This document shows, piece by piece, positions 3,477 through 16,986 of a stretch of 64,000 bases of DNA (positions are counted from its first letter, which is position 1; each line of letters starts with the position of its first letter). The notes under the pieces were generated by a model. The model was not told where the DNA came from. It made no database searches and saw only the letters and a list, made by a program, of their open reading frames with translations. Source of the DNA: Pseudomonas sp. A34-9 (lineage in GTDB: Bacteria > Pseudomonadota > Gammaproteobacteria > Pseudomonadales > Pseudomonadaceae); NCBI RefSeq assembly GCF_029543085.1, contig NZ_CP119967.1, forward strand, positions 5,619,001 to 5,683,000, in the 5' to 3' direction. The translations under genes were made by a program, and so were the position numbers.

Positions 3477-3917
3477 ATGCCCCCTATCGTTCTGGTGCTC
3501 AACGGCCCGAACCTGAACCTGCTCGGCACCCGCGAGCCGGCGACTTATGGTCACGAAACCCTGGCGGACATCTCGGCGTTGTGCGGTCGCGCTGCCGAAG
3601 AATTCGGCCTGGCCGTGGAGTTTCGCCAGACCAACCACGAAGGCGAACTGCTCGACTGGATTCACGCGGCTCGCGGTCGTTGTGCCGGGATCGTGATCAA
3701 CCCGGCAGCATGGACGCACACGTCGGTGGCGATCCGCGATGCGCTGGTGGCCAGTGAGTTGCCGGTCATCGAAGTGCACCTGTCCAACGTCCATGCCCGC
3801 GAACCGTTTCGTCATCACTCGTTTGTCTCGGCAATCGCCACGGCGGTGATGGCCGGTTTTGGCAGTCATGGCTATCGCCTGGCGCTGGAACATTTCAGTC
3901 AGCGGCTGAAGGGGTGA
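3477..3917 (+). CDS. aroQ: type II 3-dehydroquinate dehydratase (catabolic copy)
   Basis: A 146-residue dodecameric dehydratase that interconverts 3-dehydroquinate and 3-dehydroshikimate. Hallmarks of type II enzymes are present: [14 protein letters not shown] with the catalytic Tyr shortly after (ATYG), the flexible lid Arg in [36 protein letters not shown], and [15 protein letters not shown]. The ATG at 3477 has TGGAG nine bases upstream. Pseudomonads usually carry a second, biosynthetic aroQ elsewhere (next to accB); this copy lies with shikimate dehydrogenase, quiC and an importer, so it probably serves quinate/shikimate breakdown. It is followed after five bases by the dehydrogenase gene. 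Confidence 0.95.
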
Positions 3918-3922
3918 ATCGC

Positions 3923-4777
3923 ATGTCTCGCTCTAACGTGATACTCGCCGGGCTGATCGGCGCTGGCATTCAGGCCTCGCGCACGCCAGCGCTGCATGAG
4001 CACGAAGGTGATGCGCAGGACATGCGTTACCTGTACCGATTGATCGATCTCGATCAGCTGAAAATGGACAGCAGTGCCCTGCCCGACCTGCTGCTGGCGG
4101 CCGAACGGATGAATTACACCGGGCTGAACATCACGTTCCCGTGCAAGCAGGCGATCATCCCCCTGCTCGATGAGTTGTCGCCGGAAGCCAAAGGTATTGG
4201 TGCGGTCAATACGGTGGTGCTGAAGGACGGTAAACGCGTCGGCCACAACACTGACTGTCTGGGATTCGCCGAGGGTTTTCGCCGTGGCTTGAAGGACGCT
4301 GCCCGTGAGCGTGTGGTCCAGATGGGCGCTGGTGGCGCGGGCGCGGCAGTGGCCCACGCGTTATTGAGCGAAGGCGTACAGCAACTGAGCATTTTCGACG
4401 TCGACCGTGAACGCGCGGAAAGTCTGGCGAACAATCTCAATCAGCATTTCGGCTCGAGTCGCGCAGTGGCCGGGCTCGATCTGCCGAGCACGCTGAATCT
4501 GGCCGACGGTTTGGTTAACACGACACCAATGGGCATGGCCAAACTACCGGGCATGCCGGTGCCGATTGAGCTGTTGCGCAAGGAATTGTGGGTGGCGGAG
4601 ATTGTGTATTTCCCGCTGGAAACCGAATTGTTGCGCAATGCCCGCGCGCTCGGTTGCCGGACCCTGGATGGCGGCAACATGGCGGTGTTTCAAGCCGTGA
4701 AGGCGTTTGAACTGTTCAGCGGCGTGGTGCCGGATGCGCAGCGCATGCTTGCGCACTTTCAAAGCATGAATGGTTGA
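3923..4777 (+). CDS. shikimate dehydrogenase (AroE family), catabolic type
   Basis: A 284-residue NAD(P)-linked dehydrogenase oxidising shikimate (and possibly quinate) to its 3-dehydro form. The substrate-binding region has NYTGLNITFPCKQ with the catalytic Lys, then GAVNTVV and HNTDCLGF; the nucleotide-binding loop is GAGGAGAAV near residue 135, and VNTTPMGM follows. The N-terminus (LIGAGIQASRTPALHEHE) replaces the biosynthetic AroE pattern of SxSPxxHN by SRTPALHE, as in the catabolic or RifI-like branch. The ATG at 3923 follows GAAGGGG; the GTG at 3914 is an alternative. It is co-directional with aroQ. Cofactor preference and activity on quinate are not decided by the sequence alone. Confidence 0.9.
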   Translation: MSRSNVILAGLIGAGIQASRTPALHEHEGDAQDMRYLYRLIDLDQLKMDSSALPDLLLAAERMNYTGLNITFPCKQAIIPLLDELSPEAKGIGAVNTVVLKDGKRVGHNTDCLGFAEGFRRGLKDAARERVVQMGAGGAGAAVAHALLSEGVQQLSIFDVDRERAESLANNLNQHFGSSRAVAGLDLPSTLNLADGLVNTTPMGMAKLPGMPVPIELLRKELWVAEIVYFPLETELLRNARALGCRTLDGGNMAVFQAVKAFELFSGVVPDAQRMLAHFQSMNG

Positions 4778-4820: not shown

Positions 4821-5498
4821 TCAGGCCTGCAGGTAGCGCAGCACCGATTCGCAAATCATCTCGCGATGTCGCTGTTTGATGCTTTCATCCGGCAGATCGA
4901 TCTGGAAGATCTCGCCGAACGTGTGCCGGTTCGACACACGATAAAAGCAGAACGAACTGATCAGCAAATGCACATCCAGGGCATTGAGCCCAGCACGGAA
5001 CACACCCTCTTCAGCACCCCGACGCAGAATTTCGCCGAGTGAATCGAGGATGGTGTTGTTCATCGCCTTGATCGCATCGGAACGCTTCACGTATTCAGCG
5101 TTGTGGATGTTTTCGATGCTGACGATGCGCACGAAATCGACGTTGCGATCGTGGTGATCGAAGGTGAATTCGACCAGTCGGCGAATCGCCTCCACCGGCG
5201 CCAACTCGGCCAGGTGCAGACGGTTTTCAGTACTGCGGATATCACCGTAAAGCTTCTCCAGCACCTCGACGTACAATTGCTCCTTACTGCCGAAGTAGTA
5301 ATAGATCATGCGTTTGGAGGTGTGGATACGCTCGGCGATCGCATCGACGCGAGCGCCGGACAAGCCCTGCTGGACGAACTCGACGATCGCCTCCTGCAGG
5401 ATGTTCTCGCGGGTCTTTTCCGGGTTGTTCTTGCGACTCTTGCGCGGCTCAACGGCGGACACTTCAGGAGCTGCGGTAAGTTCTGTATTCATCGTCAT
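4821..5498 (-). CDS. TetR family transcriptional regulator of the quinate/shikimate genes
   Basis: A 225-residue repressor-type protein. The first 20-30 residues are a loose tail rich in Glu, Arg and Lys (SAVEPRKSRKNNPEKTRENIL), then a TetR helix-turn-helix at about 30-75: ILQEAIVEFVQQGLSGARVD, AIAERIHTSKRMIYYYFGSK. The C-terminal ligand domain resembles TetR_C proteins (HDRNVDFVRIVSIENIHNAEYV). In the related P. aeruginosa block (PA0243) a TetR gene sits in the same place, between the shikimate dehydrogenase and quiC genes. It faces away from aroQ/aroE and is transcribed in the direction opposite to the MFS gene, ahead of it on the same strand as quiC. The natural effector is probably a pathway intermediate; this is inference. 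Confidence 0.9.
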   Translation of the reverse strand: MTMNTELTAAPEVSAVEPRKSRKNNPEKTRENILQEAIVEFVQQGLSGARVDAIAERIHTSKRMIYYYFGSKEQLYVEVLEKLYGDIRSTENRLHLAELAPVEAIRRLVEFTFDHHDRNVDFVRIVSIENIHNAEYVKRSDAIKAMNNTILDSLGEILRRGAEEGVFRAGLNALDVHLLISSFCFYRVSNRHTFGEIFQIDLPDESIKQRHREMICESVLRYLQA

Positions 5499-5599: not shown

Positions 5600-7501
5600 C
5601 TACAACTTAGCCTGGCGCACTGCGCCACTGCGTGATTTGGCCATCGCCGCCAGACGCACCGCGACGTTCGCCGCGCCATACCCGACATAGCCATTTTTAC
5701 GCTGGATGATCTCGAAGAAGAAGCGCCCTTCGAACGGTTCGGTGTAGACGTGGAACAGCTCACCGCCCTGGGCATCACGGTCGTACAAGACGTTGTAATA
5801 CGCCAGTTCGCTGAGAAATTCGTCGTCGAAATCGAAACGCGCGGCGAGGTCGTCGTAATAGTTGAGCGGAATATCCAGCAACGGTACGCCGGCCTCTTTG
5901 GCGCGACTGACTTCGGCGAAGATGTCGTCACAATCGAAGGCGATGTGATGCACACCGGAACCGCGATAACTCGACAGCGCGTGGGAGATCGCGGTGTTGC
6001 GGTTCTCGGAGATGTTCAACGGCAAGCGGATCGAACTGTCGCGGCTGCGCAGTGCGCGGCTTTTCACCAGACCATAGGGATCGGGCAGCACCACTTCATC
6101 GTCCGCTTCGAAATCCAGCAGGCTCTTATAGAACAGCACCCAACTGTCGAGGCTGTCGGCTGGCAGCGCCATGGCCATGTGGTCGATGCGCTTGAGACCG
6201 CCACGGGCCGTGGCGTCCGGCAACAGATTGAAATCGGTGCCGTAGACATCCGCCTCTTCATCGACCAGATAAATCAGACTGCCGTCGGGTGCGCGCACGG
6301 CTGCCAGCTCCAGTTCATTGGGGCCGACCAGTCCGCGATAAGGCTGGCCTTTGTAAGCGACGGCGCGGGCCAGAGCGCTGGCGCTGTCCTTGACCCGCAC
6401 GGCGGTGGCACACAGCGACGGGCCATGTGCCTCGAAAAAGCTGTGAGCGAAGGAATAAGGTTCGGAGTTGAGGATCAGGTTGATGTCGCCCTGGCGCAGC
6501 AGGCTCACACTCTTGGAGCGATGCTGCCCGGCCTTGACGAACCCGAGGCGCTCCAGCCAGTTCGACAGCTTGGCGCCGAGGCTTTCATCAACGGCGAACT
6601 CAAGAAACTCGATGCCGTTGTACTCGCTGGCCTTCGGTGTTTCGAAGAGAATTTCGCGATTGGCCACAGGTTTGACGTCCTGCTCCAGACGCTGACGGGT
6701 CTTCTCTTCCAGATACAGCAGCGAACGCAAACCGTCGGCAGCATTGGCCCGTGGCGGCGCGGCGCGGAAGCCGTCGTTGAAGATTTCCAGCGACAGTGGC
6801 CCGGTGTAGCCACTCTGGATGATCGGCGCGAGGAAGCCCGGCAGATCGAATTCGCCCTGCCCCGGGAAACAGCGGAAATGCCGGCTCCACTCCAGCACGT
6901 CCATGGCCAGAATCGGCGCATCTGCCATCTGCACGAAGAAGATCTTGTCGCCGGGAATGTCGGCGATGGCGCGGGGATCGCCCTTCAACGACAAGGTGTG
7001 AAAGCTGTCGAGCAACACGCCGAGACTTGGATGATCGGCCTGACGCACGATGTCCCAGACCTGTTGATAAGTATTCACGTGACGGCCCCACGCCAGCGCC
7101 TCATAACCGATGCGCAAGCCGCGTGCGCCGGCGTGTTCAGCCAGCAGGCGCAGATCATCGACCAGAATTTGTTGATCGCCGACGCTGTCGGCCGAGGCGT
7201 TACTGCAGACCAGCACCAGGTCGGTGCCCAGTTCCTGCATCAGATCGAACTTGCGTTCGGCCCGCTCCAGATTGCGCGCCAGGCGATCACGGCGGCAGCC
7301 TTCGAAATCGCGGAACGGCTGAAACAGGGTGATGGCGATGCCGAGGTCGGCGCACATCTGTTTAATTTCCCGCGGACTGCCGTCGTAGTACAGGAGGTCG
7401 TTTTCGAAAATCTCCACCCCGTCGAACCCGGCGGCGGCGATGGCTTCGAGCTTTTCCGGCAGGGTGCCGCTCAAGGAAACGGTGGCAATGGAACGCTGCA
7501 T
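5600..7501 (-). CDS. quiC: 3-dehydroshikimate dehydratase QuiC, fused to an HPPD-like domain
   Basis: A 633-residue two-domain protein. Residues 1 to about 280 form a sugar-isomerase/AP-endonuclease-2 TIM barrel (MQRSIATVSLSGTLPEKLEA, FDGVEIFENDLLYYDG, GYEALAWGRHV, LDSFHTLSL, QMADAP, FPGQGEFDLPGFL) which dehydrates 3-dehydroshikimate to protocatechuate with a divalent metal held by Glu, Asp, Gln and Glu. Residues about 285-620 resemble 4-hydroxyphenylpyruvate dioxygenase (VOC folds: GIEFLEFAVDE, LKRIDHMAMA, GVHHIAFDCDDIF, FFEIIQRKNGYVGYGAANV). This fused form is known from P. putida QuiC1, where the second domain is needed for stability or activity rather than having a known dioxygenase reaction. 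The ATG at 7501 follows GGGAG. The gene is divergent from the importer. Confidence 0.93.
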   Translation of the reverse strand: MQRSIATVSLSGTLPEKLEAIAAAGFDGVEIFENDLLYYDGSPREIKQMCADLGIAITLFQPFRDFEGCRRDRLARNLERAERKFDLMQELGTDLVLVCSNASADSVGDQQILVDDLRLLAEHAGARGLRIGYEALAWGRHVNTYQQVWDIVRQADHPSLGVLLDSFHTLSLKGDPRAIADIPGDKIFFVQMADAPILAMDVLEWSRHFRCFPGQGEFDLPGFLAPIIQSGYTGPLSLEIFNDGFRAAPPRANAADGLRSLLYLEEKTRQRLEQDVKPVANREILFETPKASEYNGIEFLEFAVDESLGAKLSNWLERLGFVKAGQHRSKSVSLLRQGDINLILNSEPYSFAHSFFEAHGPSLCATAVRVKDSASALARAVAYKGQPYRGLVGPNELELAAVRAPDGSLIYLVDEEADVYGTDFNLLPDATARGGLKRIDHMAMALPADSLDSWVLFYKSLLDFEADDEVVLPDPYGLVKSRALRSRDSSIRLPLNISENRNTAISHALSSYRGSGVHHIAFDCDDIFAEVSRAKEAGVPLLDIPLNYYDDLAARFDFDDEFLSELAYYNVLYDRDAQGGELFHVYTEPFEGRFFFEIIQRKNGYVGYGAANVAVRLAAMAKSRSGAVRQAKL

Positions 7502-7696: not shown

Positions 7697-7856
7697 TTTG
7701 CGTGCGATTATCGAACACAATGGCGGTTTGGCGAATTGACGATTTTTCGTCCACTGCCCAACATCGGCTGCACATTGAGTCCGGATCTGAACCACCGGTC
7801 GCAGCGTGCACAGAAAAAAGCACACCAAATAACAAATCCAAAAACGGGTGGAACAC

Positions 7857-9194
7857 ATGATTCCTTCACAGACTTCCCGCATGGCTCCGGCCATCAACAC
7901 TGCCACGGGTGGCATCGGCGACAAGATCCGCGGCGCCATGGCCGTCGGCAAGACCCGTTGGGGCATGCTGGCACTGGTGTTTTTCGCCACCACCCTGAAC
8001 TACATCGACCGCGCAGCCCTCGGCGTCATGCAGCCGATCCTCGCCAAGGAAATGAGCTGGACGGCGATGGATTACGCCAACATCAACTTCTGGTTTCAGG
8101 TCGGCTACGCGATCGGTTTCGTCCTGCAAGGTCGACTGATCGACCGGGTCGGCGTCAAGCGCGTGTTCTTCTGCGCCGTACTGCTGTGGAGCCTGGCCAC
8201 CGGTGCCCACGGTCTGGCGACATCGGCCGTCGGCTTCATGGTCTGCCGGTTCATCCTCGGTCTGACTGAAGCGGCGAACTACCCGGCCTGTGTGAAGACC
8301 ACGCGCCTGTGGTTCCCGGCCGGCGAACGCGCAGTCGCCACCGGCATCTTCAACGCCGGCACCAACGTCGGTGCGATGTTCACGCCAATGCTGCTGCCAC
8401 TGGTCCTGCACGTCTGGGGCTGGCAAGCGGCGTTCCTGTGCATGTCGGCACTGGGCGGCATCTGGCTGTTGTTCTGGGGCTTGAAGTACTTCAACCCGGA
8501 AGATCATCCGAGCGTCAAACAGTCCGAGCTGGACTACATCCAGCAAGAAGTCGAACCGGAACAGGCCCGCGTACCGTTTTCGAAGATCCTGCGCATGCGC
8601 GGCACCTGGGCTTTCGCCCTCGCCTACTCGCTGACTGCGCCAGTGTTCTGGTTCTACCTGTACTGGCTGCCGCCGTTTCTCAACCAGCAATACAACCTGG
8701 GCATCAACGTCACCCAGATGGGTATTCCGCTGATCATCATTTACGTCACGGCTGACTTCGGTAGCGTCGGTGGCGGCATCTTGTCTTCGTTCCTGATCGG
8801 TCGCGGGATGAACTCGATCAAGGCGCGGCTGCTGTCGATGTTCCTGTTTGCCTGCTGCATCATCGGCGTGGTCATGGCGGCTGGCTCGGCCAATCTGTGG
8901 GTCGCAGTGGCGGCTATCTCTCTGGCCATCGGTGCACATCAGGCCTGGACCGCAAACATCTGGAGCCTGGTGATGGACTACACGCCCAAGCACATGATGA
9001 GCACGGTGTTCGGTTTCGGCGGCATGTGCGCAGCGATCGGCGGGATGTTCATGACCCAGATCGTCGGCCACATCCTCACCGTGACCAACAACAACTACAC
9101 CGTGTTGTTCACCTTGATCCCGGCGATGTACTTCATTGCGCTGACGTGGATGTACTTCATGGCGCCGCGCAAAATTCCTACCGTCACCGAGTAA
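7857..9194 (+). CDS. MFS transporter (ACS family), likely quinate/shikimate uptake
   Basis: A 445-residue inner-membrane carrier with about 12 helices. The signature LNYIDRAALGVMQPILAKEM in the first helix and loop, GRLIDRVGVKRVFFCAVLLW between helices 2 and 3, and ILGLTEAANYPACVKTTRLWFP in helix 4 mark the anion:cation symporter (ACS) family, which takes up organic acids such as galactonate, hexuronates and phthalate. Length is normal. The ATG at 7857 follows GGTGG; a GTG at 7848 is the alternative. It is divergent from quiC, as in the P. aeruginosa PA0241-PA0242 pair, so the substrate is most likely quinate, shikimate or 3-dehydroshikimate. Substrate assignment is by context only. Confidence 0.88.
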   Translation: MIPSQTSRMAPAINTATGGIGDKIRGAMAVGKTRWGMLALVFFATTLNYIDRAALGVMQPILAKEMSWTAMDYANINFWFQVGYAIGFVLQGRLIDRVGVKRVFFCAVLLWSLATGAHGLATSAVGFMVCRFILGLTEAANYPACVKTTRLWFPAGERAVATGIFNAGTNVGAMFTPMLLPLVLHVWGWQAAFLCMSALGGIWLLFWGLKYFNPEDHPSVKQSELDYIQQEVEPEQARVPFSKILRMRGTWAFALAYSLTAPVFWFYLYWLPPFLNQQYNLGINVTQMGIPLIIIYVTADFGSVGGGILSSFLIGRGMNSIKARLLSMFLFACCIIGVVMAAGSANLWVAVAAISLAIGAHQAWTANIWSLVMDYTPKHMMSTVFGFGGMCAAIGGMFMTQIVGHILTVTNNNYTVLFTLIPAMYFIALTWMYFMAPRKIPTVTE

Positions 9195-9214: not shown

Positions 9215-9302
9215 CTGTAGGAGCTGCGGCACGCTGCGATCTTTTGATCTTGATGTTGAAGATCAAAAGATCTCAACCTCGTTTCACTCGCCAGCTCCTA
9301 CA
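9215..9302. repeat. REP doublet (REPIN), diverged GAGCTG type
   Basis: CTGTAGGAGCTGCGGCACGCTGCGATC and a poorer inverted copy (GATCTCAACC ... CCAGCTCCTACA) flank TTTTGATCTTGATG..GATCAAAAGAT. It lies between the MFS gene and the convergent EamA gene. Its right end contains the EamA stop codon (TAG on the minus strand at 9298-9300). Confidence 0.75.
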
Positions 9303-10188
9303 AGGGTTGGTGTTTTCTGCTCTGCTGCCACGCCGCCGCCAGCCCGCTGCAACAGATCACCGCAATGCCGATGATCGTCAACAGACTCGGCGTGTGATTG
9401 AACAGCAACCAGCCCAACAACCCCGCAAACACGATCTGGCAATAACCGAACGGCGCCAGCAACGCCGGAGCGGCATGGCGGAATGCCTGGGTCAGAAACA
9501 AATGCGCAGTCATCCCGCAACTGCCCAGCGCCAGCATTAGCCCGGCATGGGTCAGCGTCGGCACTTGCCAGAAGAACGGCACCAGCGCACTCATCACCAG
9601 CGTGTTGCACAACCCGGCGAAAAAGTTGCTGGTGGTCGGGCTGTCCACTTCGGCGAGCTTGCGGGTCAGCAGTTGATAGAAGCAGAAAAACAGCGCCGAA
9701 CAGAACGGCAGCAACACCGCCGGTGTGAACAATTCACCGCCCGGGTGAACGATGATCAGCACGCCGATAAAGCCGCAGATCACGGCAATCCATTGCCCGC
9801 GTGTCACACGCTCCTTGAGCAGCGGCACCGACAAAGCGGTGACTAATACCGGCGCAAGAAAGTTGACCGCCGTGGCTTCCGCCAGCGGGATATACAGCAG
9901 GGCCGTGGTGAAAAACAGGCTTGTACCGAGTAGGCAAAGTGCTCGGGTCAACTGCCATAACGGCTTCTTGGTGCGCAGGACGCGCAACCCGGACTGCGGC
10001 AGAAAAATCCCCGCCATCAGTAAGGTGTGCACCAGATAGCGTGCCCAGACCACCATCACGATCGGATAGAAACCCGAGAGGTATTTCGACAATGCGTCGT
10101 GACTGGAGAACAGGAAGGTCGCCACAACGATCAGCAAGATCCCTTTGAAGGGTTGGTTGACACCGGAGAGCGGGGTGCTGACGGTCAT
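9298..10188 (-). CDS. DMT/EamA family transporter
   Basis: A 296-residue membrane protein with ten predicted helices in two EamA repeats (residues about 15-140 and 150-285), e.g. GILLIVVATFLFSSHDALSKYL and LPLAEATAVNFLAPVLVTALS. The drug/metabolite superfamily moves amino acids, nucleosides, sugars or other small metabolites in either direction. It is co-directional with the isomerase and Gfo/Idh genes but 100 bases beyond them, with a REP unit in the gap, so it may or may not share their transcript. The last codons (CAA CCC TTG) and stop lie at or inside a REP element, so the C-terminus may have been altered by that element. Substrate unknown. Confidence 0.88.
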   Translation of the reverse strand: MTVSTPLSGVNQPFKGILLIVVATFLFSSHDALSKYLSGFYPIVMVVWARYLVHTLLMAGIFLPQSGLRVLRTKKPLWQLTRALCLLGTSLFFTTALLYIPLAEATAVNFLAPVLVTALSVPLLKERVTRGQWIAVICGFIGVLIIVHPGGELFTPAVLLPFCSALFFCFYQLLTRKLAEVDSPTTSNFFAGLCNTLVMSALVPFFWQVPTLTHAGLMLALGSCGMTAHLFLTQAFRHAAPALLAPFGYCQIVFAGLLGWLLFNHTPSLLTIIGIAVICCSGLAAAWQQSRKHQPL

Positions 10189-10242
10189 TGGGTTTCCTTG
10201 TGGTGCCGTAAAAGATCAAAAGCTTCGCAGGCAGTCTCGCCT

Positions 10243-10275
10243 CCCCCTGTGGGAGCGGACGTGCCCGCGATCAGG
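10243..10275. repeat. single REP-like unit, diverged
   Basis: CCCCTGTGGGAGCGGACGTG and the following CCCGCGATC resemble the GTGGGAGCGAGC...GCTCGCGA family but with changed core. It sits in the 100-base gap between the EamA and isomerase genes. Confidence 0.45.
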
Positions 10276-10288
10276 TGCGCAGCAGCGC

Positions 10289-11104
10289 TTACAGCCGCGC
10301 CAACAACTCCCGCGTTCTATCAATCGCCATCTGCGCCCGCTGCAATCCGCTCACGCCCTGCTCCAGCAGTTTAACCGTGGGAATTTCCAGACTCAGTGGG
10401 ATATTAGCCGGCAGCGCTTTCAGCAACCCGAGCAGATCACAATCACCCTCGCCGGGAAACCGCCGCTCGTTGCGCGCCTGACGCAAGATCTCGGCCATGT
10501 CTGACGGTCGCGGACCCGCGACATCACATAACTGCGCATAACGCAGGCGCGACATCGGCACTTGCGCCAGATCCTCCAAGCGTGACGCCGAACGATCAAA
10601 GTGAAACGCATCAACCAGCACCGCAGCGTTTTCCCGATCAGCGTTTTCGACAATTCGCAGCGCTTGTTCGAGGTTGCGCGCATCAGTCCAGGGCATGAAC
10701 TCCAGATGCGGGTGCAACCCGTAAGGCGCGGCCAGATCGCACAGGGCCGCGAAGTTCTCAGTCAGCCGCTGTTCGTCAGAATCGTTACCGGCGACCAGCA
10801 ATTCAGTAGCGCCCAATTGCGCGCCGACCGTAAGAAGCTTCTCGAAATCGGCGACGACGGTTTGCGGCTTCAAACGCAGGATTTCCACATCGAGTACACG
10901 GATGCCGGTATCGCGCAGGCGTTGCAACGTCTGACGCCGCAAATCGCCATCGGCTACCAGCGGGAAGTGATATTCCTCAGGTGTCGCCGGTTCCAGGCGC
11001 AAGCCGACATGGCTGTAACCGGCACGCGCGGCCACCTCGACCATTTGCGGTGGCGACAACTCCAGCACGGTCAGGCTGGCCAGGGACAGGATTCGTTCGC
11101 TCAT
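10289..11104 (-). CDS. sugar phosphate isomerase/epimerase-like TIM-barrel protein
   Basis: A 271-residue xylose-isomerase-like (AP endonuclease family 2) barrel. Recognisable elements: ERILSLASLTVLELSPPQMV, GYSHVGLRLEPATPEE, TELLVAGND, the metal-site strand HPHLEFMPWTDARNL, VLVDAFHFDRS, RLRYAQLCDVAGPRP and FPGEGDCDLLGLL, ending SLEIPTVKLLEQG. Relatives include inosose dehydratases, epimerases and dehydroshikimate dehydratases. Four acidic or His ligands (Glu, Asp, His, Glu) appear retained, so it is probably an active metal enzyme. The ATG at 11104 comes two bases after the Gfo/Idh stop codon, so the two are translationally coupled; such pairs are common in polyol and sugar-acid catabolism. 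The reaction is unknown. Confidence 0.85.
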   Translation of the reverse strand: MSERILSLASLTVLELSPPQMVEVAARAGYSHVGLRLEPATPEEYHFPLVADGDLRRQTLQRLRDTGIRVLDVEILRLKPQTVVADFEKLLTVGAQLGATELLVAGNDSDEQRLTENFAALCDLAAPYGLHPHLEFMPWTDARNLEQALRIVENADRENAAVLVDAFHFDRSASRLEDLAQVPMSRLRYAQLCDVAGPRPSDMAEILRQARNERRFPGEGDCDLLGLLKALPANIPLSLEIPTVKLLEQGVSGLQRAQMAIDRTRELLARL

Positions 11105-11106
11105 GT

Positions 11107-12168
11107 TCAAGCCTCGATCAGTGCAGGGGCGCAGGCGCGGCCAGTGGCGGCAGCTTCGCGAATGGCTTCGATCAGCGCGAGGGTGCGCGCTGCATCGGCA
11201 GCGCTCACCAACGGCTCGACCTCCCGGCGTGCCACGCGGACGAAATGCTCTAACTGCAAGCGTAAAGCTTCGTCACCGCTGTAGGACTCTTCCACACTCA
11301 ACAACGGTTCATGCCAACCGGCATCCACCTGATCAGCGGCGTAATGCCAACGCTTGAGTTGCGGAATGCTCAACGCTCCGGCGGTACCCGCCAGCAGATA
11401 ACACGGTTGATCCGCCTGGCGCGGATACGCCGGGTTTTCACCGGATGCCAGCTCCCAACTCCACGGTGCCGCAACTGCATCGGAACCGCTCAACGTGCCA
11501 AGTGTGCCGCTCACAAATTGCAGCAACACTGCCGCGCTGTCTTCGTTGGCGAAACCGCGCACTGAGTTGTCAGTGATCGCTTGCACCGATCGCACCTCAC
11601 CGCACAGGTGACGCAACAGGTCGAGATCGTGAATCAGGTTAGTCAGCAACATCCCCGCCCCCGCTTCACGGCGCCACGGGATCTCGAAATAGCTGTCCGG
11701 TTTGCGCAACTGAAACAGCGCGGTGACCGTGGTCAGGCGCCCGAGCGCTCCGCTCTGCAGCAATTCATAAGCGCGAACGATCAATGGATTGTGGCGCCGA
11801 TGATGGCCGACCAGAACCGGCACACCGCTGCGTTTAACCGCCGCGACCAGCTCGCGCGCTTCATCCAGATGCACGCCGACCGGTTTCTCCAACAGCACCG
11901 GTACGCCTGCCGCCAGACAATCGAGCGCCGTCGCGACGTGCTGATTATTCGGATTGGCGACGATCACCGCGTCTGGCCTGACGTGCTCGAGCATCTGACG
12001 ATGATCAGCGAAATGCCTTACACCCCATTCAGCCGCAAGTGCTGCTGATTGCGGCCCGGGATCAGCTACCGCGCAGAGCGTCGCTTCGGTGAGGAATTGC
12101 AGATGCCGATAATGTTGCTGGCCCATGTTGCCAGCACCGATCAAGGCGATTCGAAGGGGCGAATTCAA
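11107..12168 (-). CDS. Gfo/Idh/MocA family oxidoreductase
   Basis: About 353 residues: an N-terminal Rossmann fold (IALIGAGNMGQQHYRHL) and the C-terminal Gfo/Idh domain. The catalytic Lys is in VLLEKPVGVHLDEA near residue 95, and a dehydrogenase His-rich strand follows (LLTNLIHDLDLLRHLCGEV). The family oxidises or reduces hydroxyl groups of inositols, sugars and related compounds with NAD(P). The TTG at 12168 is chosen as start because AGAGGA precedes it at good spacing and the Rossmann strand begins seven residues later; a GTG at 12204 would add 12 residues. It is coupled to the isomerase gene and preceded by an IclR-type palindrome. Substrate not determined. Confidence 0.88.
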   Translation of the reverse strand: MNSPLRIALIGAGNMGQQHYRHLQFLTEATLCAVADPGPQSAALAAEWGVRHFADHRQMLEHVRPDAVIVANPNNQHVATALDCLAAGVPVLLEKPVGVHLDEARELVAAVKRSGVPVLVGHHRRHNPLIVRAYELLQSGALGRLTTVTALFQLRKPDSYFEIPWRREAGAGMLLTNLIHDLDLLRHLCGEVRSVQAITDNSVRGFANEDSAAVLLQFVSGTLGTLSGSDAVAAPWSWELASGENPAYPRQADQPCYLLAGTAGALSIPQLKRWHYAADQVDAGWHEPLLSVEESYSGDEALRLQLEHFVRVARREVEPLVSAADAARTLALIEAIREAAATGRACAPALIEA

Positions 12169-12217
12169 GGTGCGGTCCTCTTGTGATTGTTCTCGGAATG
12201 ACACTCCGCAAACAATT

Positions 12218-12232
12218 TAGAACCGAGTTCCA
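12218..12232. promoter_or_regulatory. candidate IclR operator upstream of the Gfo/Idh operon
   Basis: TAGAAC-CGA-GTTCCA is a 15-base palindrome with one mismatch (read on the minus strand, TGGAAC-TCG-GTTCTA). It fits the IclR-family operator form TGGAAnnnnnTTCCA. It lies 50 bases upstream of the Gfo/Idh start. A second copy lies before the FAD dehydrogenase gene (13306-13320). Confidence 0.5.
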
Positions 12233-12299
12233 GAATCAAAAACCCATGAGTGAGAAAACCGTGCGAACACCGCACCCTTTCAGCAAATACAAAAATCCC

Positions 12300-12380
12300 T
12301 GTAGGAGCTGCCGAAGGCTGCGATCTTTTGATCTTGTCCCTTAAAAGCAAAAAGATCGCAGCCTTCGGCAGCTCCTACAA
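12300..12380. repeat. REP doublet (REPIN), GAGCTGCCGAAGG type
   Basis: TGTAGGAGCTGCCGAAGGCTGCGATC and its exact inverse GATCGCAGCCTTCGGCAGCTCCTACA flank a short AT-rich loop (TTTTGATCTTGTCCCTTAAAAGC). It lies 16 bases beyond the IclR stop codon, between the IclR gene and the Gfo/Idh promoter region. Confidence 0.9.
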
Positions 12381-12395
12381 GGGATTGGCGGCGGA

Positions 12396-13172
12396 TCAGA
12401 TAAACAGTTCTGAGGCCAGGCTCGCCGCGGATAATTCTTCGGTGAATGTCAGCAACAACGGCGCAAGTTCATGCAACCGCGCCCCCGGCATCCGCGCGCT
12501 CGGCCCGGCGATACTCAGCACGCCAATCACTCGCCCATCTGCAGGATGTCTCACCACCGCGGCAATCGCCGAAGTCCCCACTGCCGAACTCTCTTCGACA
12601 CAGGCATACCCCTGCTCGCGCGCCAAGCGCAGCCGCTCGAGCAACTCGATATTCGAGCGCGGCGCATTCGGCCCAACCCCCACCGGCACTTCCGCCGCTT
12701 GACGCTCAACCAGCGACAGCGCCTCGGCATCGCTCATGCACGCCAGCCATGCGTGCCCGGACGCGGTGTAGAACAGCGGCGCATCGCGGCCCATGTCCGG
12801 GTCATAACGCAGACCGGTACGCGCCCCCTGCGCCTTGGCGATCCAGGTCTGGCGCTCGCCATCGATCACGCCCAGACGCACCAGTTCACCGGTTTCCTGC
12901 GCCAGTCGATCCAGCACTGGCTGGACAATATCGGCGCCGCTACTCGAAAGGTATTGAAAGCCCATCGCGACCAGTTTGGTCGACAAGTGATAACGCAAGG
13001 TTTCCGCATTCTGCCGCACATAGCCCAAGCGGATCAGCTCGGCGAGCAAGCGGTGCGTTGCACTCTTGGGGATGCCCAGTTGCTCGGCCAGCATCTGCAT
13101 CGGCAGCCCGCGCGGATCACTGGTGAGGCTTTCCAGCACGCTGAAAACCCGTTCGATTTGACTGCCGGCCAT
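12396..13172 (-). CDS. IclR family transcriptional regulator
   Basis: A 258-residue regulator, the usual length. An N-terminal winged helix-turn-helix spans about residues 5-65 (GSQIERVFSVLESL, MQMLAEQLGIPKSATHRLLA, RLGYVRQN), and the IclR effector domain covers 80-250 (LAQETGELVRLGVIDGERQTW, YTASGHAWLACMS, REQGYACVEESSAVGTSAIA, GVLSIAGPSARMPG). The ATG at 13172 was chosen because the domain starts there; upstream codons lack family similarity. It is divergent from the FAD dehydrogenase gene and followed by the Gfo/Idh operon, and both have IclR-type palindromes upstream. It is therefore the probable switch for both arms. Confidence 0.93.
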   Translation of the reverse strand: MAGSQIERVFSVLESLTSDPRGLPMQMLAEQLGIPKSATHRLLAELIRLGYVRQNAETLRYHLSTKLVAMGFQYLSSSGADIVQPVLDRLAQETGELVRLGVIDGERQTWIAKAQGARTGLRYDPDMGRDAPLFYTASGHAWLACMSDAEALSLVERQAAEVPVGVGPNAPRSNIELLERLRLAREQGYACVEESSAVGTSAIAAVVRHPADGRVIGVLSIAGPSARMPGARLHELAPLLLTFTEELSAASLASELFI

Positions 13173-13274
13173 GGTGAAATCCAAATAAAATTTCGCCGAT
13201 TCTAGAAGACATCTCCCACAAAGCGAAATCTGGAACCGTACGTTCGATAACCGCCCGGTTTGTCGTATCAAGGC

Positions 13275-13304
13275 TTGTAGGCCGTCGGCAGCAATGGTTA
13301 TTTT
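13275..13304 (+). promoter_or_regulatory. possible promoter of the FAD dehydrogenase operon
   Basis: TTGTAG (13275-13280) and TATTTT (13299-13304) are spaced by 18 bases and resemble a sigma-70 promoter. The predicted start near 13311 falls inside the IclR-type palindrome at 13306-13320, an arrangement that would suit repression. Confidence 0.35.
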
Positions 13305-13305
13305 C

Positions 13306-13320
13306 TGGAATCAAATTCCA
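13306..13320. promoter_or_regulatory. candidate IclR operator before the FAD dehydrogenase gene
   Basis: TGGAAT-CAA-ATTCCA is a perfect 6-3-6 palindrome, close to the E. coli IclR site form (TGGAAATnATTTCCA). It is 29 bases before the ATG at 13350. A further half-site TGGAAC is at 13231-13236. Confidence 0.6.
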
Positions 13321-13349
13321 AAAAAAAAACCAGCCTGGAGCCTTGTTTG

Positions 13350-15089
13350 ATGCCTGCCGAACTTCCCGCAATCGACTGCGACGTATTAATCGTCGGCTCC
13401 GGCGCCGCCGGATTGTCAGCAGCCGTCACCGCTGCATGGCATGGCCTGAAGGTCATCGTCGTCGAAAAGGATTCGGTGTTCGGTGGCGCCACCGCATGGT
13501 CGGGGGGCTGGGCGTGGGTGCCGTGCAATCCGCTGGCCCGTCGCGCCGGCATCATCGAAGACGTCGAACAGCCGCGCACCTATTTGCGCCATGAGCTGGG
13601 CGAGCATTTCGATCCGGCGATGATCGACGCTTTCCTCGAAGCCGGGCCACGCATGGTCGCGTTTTTCGAGCAGCACACTGCCTTGCAGTTCGCCGACGGC
13701 AATGCGATTGCCGACATCCATGGCGACACACCGGGCGCAGGCACCGGCGGTCGATCGGTGATCGCCGCCCCCTACGATGGCCGCAAGGTCGGACGCTTGC
13801 TCAAGCGACTTCGTACGACCATGCGCGAAACGTCCTTCATGGGCATGCCGATCATGGCGGGCGCAGACCTGTCGGCGTTCCTCCACTTGACCCGTTCGCT
13901 GACAGCCGCGTGGCACGTGACGCGACGGTTCACTCGGCACCTGTTTGACCTCGCACGGCATGGCCGCGCGCTGCAACTGGTCAACGGCGTGGCGCTGGTC
14001 GCGCGACTGGCGAAATCGGCGGAAGACCTCGGCGTGTTGCTGTGGGAATCGGCGCCGGTGACCGAGTTGCTGCGCGACGAAAACCGCGTTTGCGGTGCTG
14101 TGATCAACAGCAACAAAGGCCCGATCCGCATTCATGCAGGCAAAGCCGTCGTGCTCGCGGCAGGTGGTTTCGCCAACGACATCGAACGCCGCCAAGCCCT
14201 GTTCCCGCGCACACCCACCGGCCACGAACATTGGGCATTGCCGCCACTGGCCGTGAATGGCGATGGCTTGCGGCTGGGCGAAAGCGTCGGTGCGCGGGTC
14301 AACAGCGACGTCGCGTCACCGGTCGCGTGGGCACCGGTTTCACAAGTGCCTCATTCCGACGGCAGCATCGGCCATTTCCCACACATCATTGAGCGCGGCA
14401 AACCCGGCATCATCGGCGTGCTCAGCAACGGTCAGCGTTTCGTCAACGAAGCCAACGGCTATTTCGACTACGTCAGCGCCATGGTTGCCGCCGCGCCAGA
14501 AGGTGAAGAAGTCGCCTCATGGCTGATCTGCACCCACGCCTTTCAACGTCGTTATGGCCTCGGCATATCGCGACCGTTTCCGCTTCCATTGTCAGAATTT
14601 ATCCGCAGCGGCTATCTGAAAACCGGCAATACCGTTGAGGAATTGGCCAACAATTGCGGCATCGACCCCAACGGTTTGCGCCAGACCCTCGACAACTACA
14701 ACCGCCATGCACGCCACGGCGAAGACCCGCAGTTCGGTCGTGGCTCAACACCCTACAACCGCAAACAGGGTGATCCGGCGAACCTTCCCAACCCCTGCGT
14801 TGCCCCCATAGAAACCGGCCCGTTCTACGCCGTAAAAGTCCAACCGGGCTGCTTCGGTACGTTTGCCGGCCTTAAGGTCAACCCACACGCGCAAGTGCTG
14901 AATGCCCACGAACAACCCATCACCGGCCTTTACGCAGCGGGTGGTGACATGGCCAGCATCATGGGTGGCCACTACCCGGCGGGCGGCATCAACCTCGGCC
15001 CGGCCCTGACTTTCGGTTACATCGCCGCCCGGCACATTGCCGGCATGACTGCTTTCGAACAGGAGATCGACCATGCAGTACATCGTTAA
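13350..15089 (+). CDS. FAD-dependent dehydrogenase, fumarate reductase/KstD-like
   Basis: A 579-residue flavoprotein. The FAD-binding Rossmann motif DVLIVGSGAAGLSAAVTAAW starts near residue 11, followed by VVEKDSVFGGATAWSGGWAW, AGKAVVLAAGGFAND, and the C-terminal FAD contact GLYAAGGDMASIMGGHYPAGGINLGPALTFG. This is the FAD_binding_2 family that includes fumarate reductase, 3-ketosteroid delta-1-dehydrogenase and tricarballylate dehydrogenase; it commonly introduces or reduces a C=C next to a carbonyl. No signal peptide or heme motif is seen, so it is cytoplasmic. The ATG at 13350 has GGAG upstream. The end overlaps the aldo/keto reductase start by 17 bases. Substrate unknown; a cyclic keto compound is plausible. 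Confidence 0.85.
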   Translation: MPAELPAIDCDVLIVGSGAAGLSAAVTAAWHGLKVIVVEKDSVFGGATAWSGGWAWVPCNPLARRAGIIEDVEQPRTYLRHELGEHFDPAMIDAFLEAGPRMVAFFEQHTALQFADGNAIADIHGDTPGAGTGGRSVIAAPYDGRKVGRLLKRLRTTMRETSFMGMPIMAGADLSAFLHLTRSLTAAWHVTRRFTRHLFDLARHGRALQLVNGVALVARLAKSAEDLGVLLWESAPVTELLRDENRVCGAVINSNKGPIRIHAGKAVVLAAGGFANDIERRQALFPRTPTGHEHWALPPLAVNGDGLRLGESVGARVNSDVASPVAWAPVSQVPHSDGSIGHFPHIIERGKPGIIGVLSNGQRFVNEANGYFDYVSAMVAAAPEGEEVASWLICTHAFQRRYGLGISRPFPLPLSEFIRSGYLKTGNTVEELANNCGIDPNGLRQTLDNYNRHARHGEDPQFGRGSTPYNRKQGDPANLPNPCVAPIETGPFYAVKVQPGCFGTFAGLKVNPHAQVLNAHEQPITGLYAAGGDMASIMGGHYPAGGINLGPALTFGYIAARHIAGMTAFEQEIDHAVHR

Positions 15090-15906
15090 TACCCAAGGTT
15101 TGAACATGCCGAAACTCGGCCTCGGCACCTGGCCAATGCTCGGCGATGAATGCACCCGCGCCGTGGAGCAAGCGCTGGAATTGGGTTATCGACACATCGA
15201 CACCGCGGCGGCCTACAACAACGAGGACGCTGTCGGACAAGCGCTGGCGAATACCCCGACACCACGCGAGCAGATCCATGTCACCACCAAAGTCTGGTGG
15301 GATCAGTTGCAACCCGACGCGATGCGGCACTCCATGGACCGCAGTCTTACGGCCTTGCGCAGCGACTACGTCGATCTGTTCATGATCCACTGGCCAACCA
15401 CCGACTGGGATCTGCCACGTACCCTCGAGACGCTGGCCTCGTTCAAGCAGCAAGGCCTGGCGCGGAACATCGGCGTAGCGAATTTTCCGCTACCGTTGCT
15501 GCGCAAAGTCATCGAGGAATATGGGATTGGTCTGTCAGCCGTTCAGGTCGAGTACCACGTACTCCTCGGTCAGAACGCCCTGCTTGACTACGCCCGCCAC
15601 CACAACCTGGCGCTGACGGCCTACACCCCGCTGGCGCGCAACAAGGTGTCGGACATCCCGCAGATTCAACAGATCGCCAACAAGCACGGCGTGCTGCCGA
15701 CTCAAGTGGCGTTGAAATGGCTGCTCGATCAACCCAACGTCGCGGCGATTCCCAAGGCCAGCAGCCGAACCAATCAACTGGCCAACCTCGCCTCGCTGAA
15801 GGTCGAACTCGACGATGAAGACCGCGCAATGATCGCCGCGCTGCCAAAGCGTGAACGCCAGGTCAGTCCGGATTTCGCCCCGGAGTGGGATGCATTTGAT
15901 CGCTGA
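15073..15906 (+). CDS. aldo/keto reductase, DkgB-like
   Basis: A 277-residue NADPH-dependent (alpha/beta)8 reductase. The catalytic tetrad is visible: Asp and Tyr in DTAAAYNNEDAVG, Lys in TTKVWWDQL and His in MIHWPTTDWD. IPKASSRTNQLANLASL is the cofactor loop. The C-terminus RQVSPDFAPEWDAFD matches the ending of E. coli DkgB, a 2,5-diketo-gluconate/methylglyoxal reductase. The ATG at 15073 has GGAGATCGACC upstream and lies inside the end of the FAD dehydrogenase gene, so the two are coupled. A strong hairpin follows. Its partner role is probably interconversion of a carbonyl and hydroxyl in the same pathway. Confidence 0.9.
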   Translation: MQYIVNTQGLNMPKLGLGTWPMLGDECTRAVEQALELGYRHIDTAAAYNNEDAVGQALANTPTPREQIHVTTKVWWDQLQPDAMRHSMDRSLTALRSDYVDLFMIHWPTTDWDLPRTLETLASFKQQGLARNIGVANFPLPLLRKVIEEYGIGLSAVQVEYHVLLGQNALLDYARHHNLALTAYTPLARNKVSDIPQIQQIANKHGVLPTQVALKWLLDQPNVAAIPKASSRTNQLANLASLKVELDDEDRAMIAALPKRERQVSPDFAPEWDAFDR

Positions 15907-16098: not shown

Positions 16099-16986
16099 AT
16101 GCTATGGAAAAAAGGCCGACGCAGTGACAACGTCGTCGATGCCCGTGGTGATGATGCCGGCGGTGGCGGCGGCATGCGTTTCGGCGGTGGCAAAGGCCTG
16201 AGTCTGGGGGCCATTCTGCTGATCGTCGGTATCGGCTGGATCACCGGGCAGGATCCGCTGCAGATCCTCGGCCAACTCGCCGGGCAATCGGGGCAACAAG
16301 CCGCACCGACTTCGCAAACCCGCCAGGCGCCGCCGGCCAATGATGAACAGGCCGAATTCGTCCGCTCGATCCTTGGCGACACCGAAGACACCTGGGGCGC
16401 GATTTTCCAGCAGGCCGGGCGGCAATATAAAGATCCGACCCTGGTGCTGTTCAGCAATCGGGTCAATTCCGCCTGCGGTCTGGCAACCTCGGCCACCGGC
16501 CCGTTCTATTGCCCGGCGGACCAGAAGGTCTATCTGGACATGGCGTTCTTCCAGGAAATGTCACAACGCTTCAAGGCTGCCGGCGACTTTGCCCAGGCCT
16601 ACGTGATCGCTCACGAAGTCGGACACCACGTGCAGACTCTTCTCGGCGTCTCGGCGAAAATTCAGACAGCCCGTCAACAAGGCCGGCAGATGGAAGGCGA
16701 CGGCGGTTTGCTGGTGCGTCAGGAATTGCAGGCCGACTGCCTCGCCGGCGTCTGGGCCAACAACGCGCAAAAGCGCCTGAACTGGCTGGAACCGGGCGAC
16801 ATCGAAGAAGCTTTGAACGCGGCCAACGCCATCGGTGATGATCGCCTGCAACAACAGGGTCAGGGCCGTGTGGTGCCGGACTCGTTTACCCACGGTACGT
16901 CGGCGCAAAGGGTGCGCTGGTTCAAAACCGGATTCGCGCAGGGCCAGGTCGGCCAGTGCGACACCTTCGCGGCGAAAAACCTGTAA
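16099..16986 (+). CDS. ypfJ: neutral zinc metallopeptidase YpfJ family
   Basis: A 295-residue membrane-anchored putative metalloprotease. The N-terminal charged part (MLWKKGRRSDNVVDARGDD), a Gly-rich stretch, one membrane segment (LSLGAILLIVGIGWITG), then the catalytic domain with VIAHEVGHHVQ (HExxH zinc motif) near residue 175 and RQELQADCLAGVWAN, whose Glu is the likely third ligand. Length matches E. coli YpfJ (287). AGAGG lies eight bases before the ATG. The stop codon abuts the start of the next gene. The physiological substrate of this family is not established. Confidence 0.9.
   Translation: MLWKKGRRSDNVVDARGDDAGGGGGMRFGGGKGLSLGAILLIVGIGWITGQDPLQILGQLAGQSGQQAAPTSQTRQAPPANDEQAEFVRSILGDTEDTWGAIFQQAGRQYKDPTLVLFSNRVNSACGLATSATGPFYCPADQKVYLDMAFFQEMSQRFKAAGDFAQAYVIAHEVGHHVQTLLGVSAKIQTARQQGRQMEGDGGLLVRQELQADCLAGVWANNAQKRLNWLEPGDIEEALNAANAIGDDRLQQQGQGRVVPDSFTHGTSAQRVRWFKTGFAQGQVGQCDTFAAKNL

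Follow-up and report, generated by a model that had tools for sequence, protein, structure and literature searches.

What do six genes grouped around an IclR-family regulator contribute to the quinate/shikimate locus of the soil bacterium Pseudomonas sp. A34-9? These genes lie in a stretch of 64,000 nt (the window; assembly GCF_029543085.1, contig NZ_CP119967.1, positions 5,619,001-5,683,000 of the forward strand) of a 6.54-Mb genome (G000), and coordinates below are window positions. The minus strand carries genes for an EamA-family transporter (9298-10188; Pfam EamA, 92.8 bits), a xylose-isomerase-like TIM-barrel protein (AP_endonuc_2; 10289-11104), a Gfo/Idh/MocA dehydrogenase (11107-12204; Pfam, 95.5 bits), and the IclR regulator (12396-13172), with HTH_IclR (62.5 bits, cutoff 22) and IclR_C (89.4 bits, cutoff 24) domains. 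The plus strand carries genes for a KstD-like flavin adenine dinucleotide (FAD) dehydrogenase (FAD_binding_2; 13350-15089; Pfam, 362.5 bits) and an aldo/keto reductase (AKR; 15073-15906; Pfam, 186.5 bits). The open reading frame (ORF) table and the Pfam/NCBIfam profile scans confirmed the families that the original prediction, made from the DNA sequence, had assigned to all six genes. On balance, the cluster is probably an IclR-regulated side branch of the quinate/shikimate locus, which would convert a plant-derived hydroaromatic acid to protocatechuate.

The evidence on regulation comes from two palindromes. The right site, TGGAATCAAATTCCA (13306-13320), has perfect 6-3-6 symmetry and adjoins a TATTTT that resembles a -10 box, upstream of the FAD gene. 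The left site, TAGAACCGAGTTCCA (12218-12232), stands before the Gfo-TIM(-EamA) unit and has one mismatched pair. With one mismatch allowed, the motif was seen nine times in the window and 9.55 times were expected from shuffles, so there is no excess. Because this loose form is no commoner than in shuffles, the strict form TRGAAYNNNRTTCYA was adopted, a pattern defined after the two window sites and a first scan had been viewed. In the whole 6.54-Mb genome TRGAAYNNNRTTCYA occurs twice, exactly at 12218-12232 and 13306-13320. The genomes G096, G019, and G061 have two sites each, at matching places; G083 has three and G086 five, and the pattern read backwards, which served as the control, has no match in five of six genomes and two in G086.

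The sites are conserved in step with the genes. For the operator census, 109 distinct loci were used; this count excludes 11 with duplicate IclR DNA, and a locus entered only with an IclR match of at least 60%. These loci contain 175 strict sites in 1.99 Mb, of which 172 fall in the two expected gaps and the remaining three, in L054, L079, and L158, precede EamA. The right site is present in 74/77 loci with a FAD gene divergent from the IclR gene but in only 1/32 without, and so belongs to the FAD promoter. The left site precedes the gene that leads its arm in 97 of 108 cases, whether this is Gfo (73/81), TIM (14/14), or EamA (10/13). In the 10 promoters inspected, the right site adjoins a TATATTTT-like -10 box, an arrangement that fits repression. 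Moreover, about 3.8 Mb of contig separates the IclR gene of G023 from its Gfo-like, TIM, and FAD genes, and yet two strict sites accompany these genes: one precedes the Gfo-like gene, and the other is in the FAD/TIM gap. G079, in which the FAD and TIM matches are fragmentary, has one strict site in the TIM/FAD gap. Since sites persist even at a distance of megabases from the regulator gene, the IclR protein probably acts in trans. These patterns, which are read directly from the DNA, support the proposal that both arms, each preceded by a palindrome of operator form, share a single IclR regulator, and they extend it to other pseudomonads.

Comparisons with known regulators place these sites in context. 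The TGGAA-N5-TTCCA spacing of the Escherichia coli IclR operator (motif TGGAAATNATTTCCA in Table 1 of PMC8222616) is common to the cluster palindromes, but the targets differ and the A34-9 genome has only two strict sites. PcaR, PcaU, and PobR likewise belong to the IclR family, and a PcaR-type box adjoins the cluster; however, the cluster palindromes are unlike GTTCGAT-type boxes, and the regulator scores 111.3 bits against the PcaR/PcaU/PobR subfamily TIGR02431, below its cutoff of 284.75. The leader of the IclR gene contains candidate autoregulation half-sites, GATTCTAGAAGAC (13198-13210), similar by eye, though uncounted, in many relatives. Over 13198-13236 these half-sites face outward (GATTCTA...TGGAAC), and similar ones are seen by eye in many of 119 leaders, including those of loci that lack the FAD gene. 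Autoregulation through another half-site arrangement is possible.

Co-occurrence was analyzed in 99 Pseudomonas genomes for the triad of Gfo/Idh, TIM, and FAD genes, using E-value cutoffs preset per gene (FAD, 1e-120; TIM, 1e-40; Gfo, 1e-70 and then 1e-45; IclR, 1e-40; QuiC, 1e-150). Matches to the three triad genes are found in an identical set of 34/99 genomes, and loosening the Gfo cutoff from 1e-70 to 1e-45 added no genome to the 34. Orthologs of the IclR regulator (at least 64% identity) are present in 46/99 genomes, 46 rather than 47 because matches of 38% and 48% were excluded; they occur in 34/34 genomes with the triad versus 12/65 without. The quiC gene is found in 82/99 genomes (34/34 with the triad versus 48/65 without). 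In the genomes compared, the three triad genes thus always occur together, and always with this IclR gene and quiC. Strains with the cluster include P. fluorescens FW300-N2E3 (locus L165) and P. koreensis DSM 16610 (locus L121).

The surroundings indicate what the cluster belongs to. To its left lie genes for the type II 3-dehydroquinate dehydratase AroQ (3477-3917, plus strand; 193.8 bits, aroQ cutoff 169.85), an AroE-like quinate/shikimate dehydrogenase (3914-4777, plus strand; 471 bits to PRK12549, cutoff 235), a TetR-family regulator of the quiC locus (4821-5492, minus strand), the 3-dehydroshikimate dehydratase QuiC (5600-7501, minus strand; 1287 bits, equivalog cutoff 1200), and, directly adjoining, an MFS transporter (7848-9194, plus strand; Pfam MFS_1, 179.9 bits). 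All 12 genomes with the IclR gene but without the triad keep IclR, EamA, quiC, and MFS genes together in the fetched stretch. The six genes therefore combine an old IclR-EamA part of the quiC locus, in which EamA persists as the partner of the IclR gene without the triad, and an insert flanking the IclR gene. The AKR gene is an optional partner: it is intact in 17/32 stretches holding both IclR and TIM genes, lacks an intact ORF in 15/32, and is present in 2/12 of the triad-less genomes with the IclR gene. The original view of the six genes as one self-contained unit is consequently not supported. Rather than being free-standing, the cluster is an optional insert in the aroQ-aroE-quiC locus, made up of the older IclR-EamA pair, the Gfo-TIM-FAD triad, and the optional AKR gene, within an aroQ-aroE-TetR-quiC-MFS arrangement. 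Both this locus assignment and the regulon are well supported.

The enzymes resemble characterized proteins but score below the cutoffs of the named enzyme families to which they were compared. The TIM protein has a single domain, and QuiC has two; it reaches 43.9 of the 1200 bits of the QuiC equivalog NF042435. However, the QuiC active-site residues Glu134, Asp165, Gln191, and Glu239 are kept in 34/34 TIM proteins, whereas the position of QuiC Arg64 falls in an alignment gap. Of the 10 active-site residues listed for Pseudomonas putida QuiC1 in PMC7442255, seven are kept. With the metal site of QuiC retained, the TIM protein is predicted to act as a metal-dependent dehydratase, or else an isomerase, on a cyclic keto acid. 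The FAD protein (579-aa form) keeps KstD1 Tyr318, Tyr487, and Gly491 as Y371, Y542, and G546, but Ile123 is aligned with Tyr119; the roles of these residues are taken from PMC5348764. With three of the four key residues of KstD, it appears suited to forming a C=C bond next to a carbonyl, as had been proposed, and it is predicted to desaturate beside a ring ketone. It has full-length similarity to KstD and to the 4-oxocyclohexanecarboxylate dehydrogenases ChcC1/ChcC2, but its gene neighborhood differs from theirs. Its scores against the KstD NCBIfam equivalogs (442 of 789 and 396.5 of 788) and the ChcC2 4-oxocyclohex-2-ene-1-carboxylate 5-dehydrogenase model NF053677 (521 of 900) are below the cutoffs; the one cutoff that it exceeds belongs to PRK06134, an unnamed subfamily (997, cutoff 747). 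The AKR protein likewise scores below the cutoff of the DkgB 2,5-didehydrogluconate reductase model NF008377 (247.4 of 327).

The best NCBIfam match of the Gfo protein, which is predicted to oxidize a ring hydroxyl, is inositol 2-dehydrogenase (IolG), though far under the cutoff (149.5 of 355). Together with the presence of IolI among the top fold matches of the TIM protein, this would agree with a cyclitol or polyol pathway of the inositol type, composed of an IolG-like Gfo and an IolI/IolE-like TIM protein and adjacent to quiC by coincidence. Such a pathway is improbable: the part of the neighbor proteins that was scanned includes no further iol-type gene, and the surroundings include aroQ, a PcaR-type box, genes of the pcaHG type, and carriers for carboxylates. 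Among the substrate classes originally considered, the context favors a quinate-like cyclic acid, and polyols and sugar acids are less favored.

The locus also has links to protocatechuate. One PcaR-type box, GTTCGATAACCGCCC (13242-13256, plus strand), lies in the IclR-FAD gap and matches 13/15 positions of the PcaR consensus core given in Table 1 of PMC8222616; another, GTTCGATAATCGCAC (7702-7716, minus strand), lies before quiC/MFS. The pattern GTYCGATWAYCGSMC has four matches each in G000, G096, and G019. Three of those in G000 precede pcaR, an OprD gene beside pcaR/pcaK/pcaF/pcaB/pcaC, and quiC, respectively; the fourth is in the IclR-FAD gap. For the box near the FAD gene in other loci, 45/119 leaders match a single regular expression, many others are one base off, and some have nothing alike. 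In addition, protocatechuate-dioxygenase-type pcaHG genes are found at the locus edge in 10/59 fetched stretches, seven with the TIM gene and three without (one pair scanned, the others assigned by clustering). The PcaR-type box and these genes tie the FAD unit to protocatechuate.

A pathway consistent with these features can be outlined. The IclR protein would occupy the two palindromes and repress FAD-AKR and Gfo-TIM-EamA until a compound of the pathway binds. The substrate may be a hydroaromatic acid closed to the classical pathway, the likeliest being a ring-saturated relative of shikimate, e.g., dihydroshikimate (3,4,5-trihydroxycyclohexanecarboxylate). Ring-saturated shikimate relatives are made from plant quinate by fermenting bacteria. 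The Gfo/Idh dehydrogenase would turn a ring hydroxyl into a ketone, the TIM protein, with its QuiC metal site, would remove water beside that ketone, and the KstD-like flavoenzyme would then take two hydrogens beside the carbonyl, making the ring aromatic. The protocatechuate formed would feed the beta-ketoadipate pathway, and PcaR, which regulates that pathway, may act at the FAD promoter as well. In its most specific form, this proposal is QuiC-independent aromatization of ring-saturated shikimate relatives by oxidation, dehydration, and a KstD-like flavoenzyme, switched by a dedicated IclR protein that probably acts in trans, and in this form we advance it only tentatively.

The order of the last two steps could also be reversed. 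The flavoenzyme would then act on the product of the Gfo dehydrogenase and yield 3-dehydroshikimate for QuiC, and the TIM protein would work upstream as an epimerase or a ketone-shifting isomerase similar to IolI, on a stereoisomeric substrate, for example an epi-quinate or epi-shikimate. The TIM fold is as close to IolI as to QuiC, QuiC accompanies the triad in all 34 genomes, and the triad adjoins quiC in many loci. However, in the alignment the fourth metal position of the TIM protein is Gln, as in QuiC, rather than the His of IolI, and quiC lies outside the fetched stretches L039, L040, L044, and L045, although it is elsewhere in those genomes. Moreover, with quiC in 34/34 triad genomes, a route through 3-dehydroshikimate would leave the TIM protein no dehydration that is needed. 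For this reason we prefer dehydration before desaturation, and we consider the reversed order unlikely. The genes might instead be a redundant isoenzyme set for ordinary quinate/shikimate, with no added substrate, given that the neighborhood is the same and the end product likely the same. The presence of quiC in 48/65 triad-less genomes, which indicates that the classical route stands alone, argues against such redundancy. Furthermore, we know of no step for a KstD-like desaturase in the established degradation of quinate/shikimate. This explanation is accordingly given little credence.

Several observations weigh against a dedicated, IclR-controlled side branch. The 99 genomes are related to each other: six changes of the triad label, four of them on well-supported branches, suffice on a tree built from the 46 IclR proteins, compared with a mean of 10.7 for shuffled labels, and a paired test is unable to reach significance. 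Among the eight triad genomes with a non-divergent FAD gene, five (G012, G062, G063, G077, and G060) have no strict site by that gene, and in another, G070, the strict site is next to an additional IclR gene. Finally, six of the seven loci with a substitute Gfo gene (L087-L089 and L091-L093) have no strict site.

Substitute Gfo genes, which encode relatives with 41-45% identity and are located elsewhere, are found in 7/34 triad genomes (G007, G009, G023, G050, G075, G079, and G085). The substitute is adjacent to AroQ in G075 and G007 and separated from it by one MFS gene in G009 (L088, L089, and L087), so that a common operon with AroQ is likely in three of these seven genomes; in G023 it lies beside TIM and FAD. 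In L087:4324-9561, L088:6042-9781, and L089:5266-7876, the substitute Gfo and AroQ genes are accompanied by a divergent LysR gene and resemble an independent hydroaromatic operon, and in L087 and L088 a second Gfo/Idh gene is also present. In G070, the FAD gene lies beside this additional IclR gene (47-48% identity), which has its own TGGAATTGAATTCCA site (L052:9031). The 80 named loci among those compared are the best of 224 and biased towards close relatives. Neighbor genes were predicted from codon scores and then clustered at 45% identity, and one or a few per cluster were scanned against Pfam.

Across the class, the TIM gene is rare, with matches in 2/369 genomes at 1e-25, A34-9 included. 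The second genome, G463, belongs to another family of the order and has FAD and TIM genes beside aroQ, an aroE gene, a quiC-like gene (748 bits, under the cutoff of 1200), and two tct gene sets. No Gfo relative was found in G463 at 1e-20, so its dehydrogenase must be a different one, perhaps the AroE-like one. Within Pseudomonas, genes for a TctABC carrier, an OprD porin, and a chemoreceptor lie between IclR and FAD in L042+L055, L043, L049, and L050 (L043 scanned, the others assigned by clustering), and the FAD genes of these loci have no strict IclR site. A further operon, which combines an AroE-like gene with two additional KstD-like FAD genes and a gene for a NIPSNAP protein, is found in L039-L042, L044-L046, and L056; a PcaR-type IclR gene stands alongside in six of these eight stretches (the L042 set scanned, the others assigned by clustering). 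This operon probably represents another ring-aromatizing route in the same neighborhood.

The arrangement of the cluster in A34-9 also bears on its transcription. Tight coupling within the arms, as originally described, is borne out, with 2 nt between the Gfo stop and the TIM ATG and an overlap of 17 nt between FAD and AKR; EamA lies 100 nt past TIM. The proposed two divergent arms are probably three transcription units, because two inverted copies of a REP-like repeat of 25 bp (12301-12378) separate the minus-strand IclR gene from Gfo. This repeat (up to three mismatches) has 16 copies in the window between 7538 and 55734, mostly as inverted pairs, although chance would yield none; besides the pair between IclR and Gfo, there is one between quiC and MFS. 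The likely start of the IclR gene is the ATG at 13172, although the mechanical ORF call opens with a TTG at 13271. For Gfo/Idh, the TTG at 12168, preceded by AGAGGA, is the likelier start candidate. A sigma-70 promoter scan gave no match at its threshold, and the single terminator-like hairpin downstream of the IclR gene is no excess over shuffles. A YpfJ-type zinc metallopeptidase gene (16099-16986) adjoins the cluster and is its neighbor in many relatives.

Among described systems, the closest is the quinate/shikimate route with QuiC (P. putida QuiC1; Corynebacterium glutamicum QsuB), which has the same locus and the same likely end product but lacks the Gfo/Idh dehydrogenase and the KstD-like desaturase that the cluster adds. 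A survey of IclR regulators includes a quinate/shikimate and 4-hydroxyphenylpyruvate COG set among their targets, and its text section does not name the cluster (PMC8222616). In open-licence literature, no description was found of the cluster or of dihydroshikimate breakdown by such genes, which does not in itself show that none is in print. The pathway would be a peripheral route into protocatechuate, a kind already known. For Pseudomonas, these results turn an unnamed cluster, present in about a third of the genomes sampled, into a concrete and directly testable prediction. If true, it would provide a new entry point to protocatechuate and new uses for three large enzyme families, and the IclR operators, a compact pair in a genome nearly devoid of further strict sites, would be useful as a sensor.

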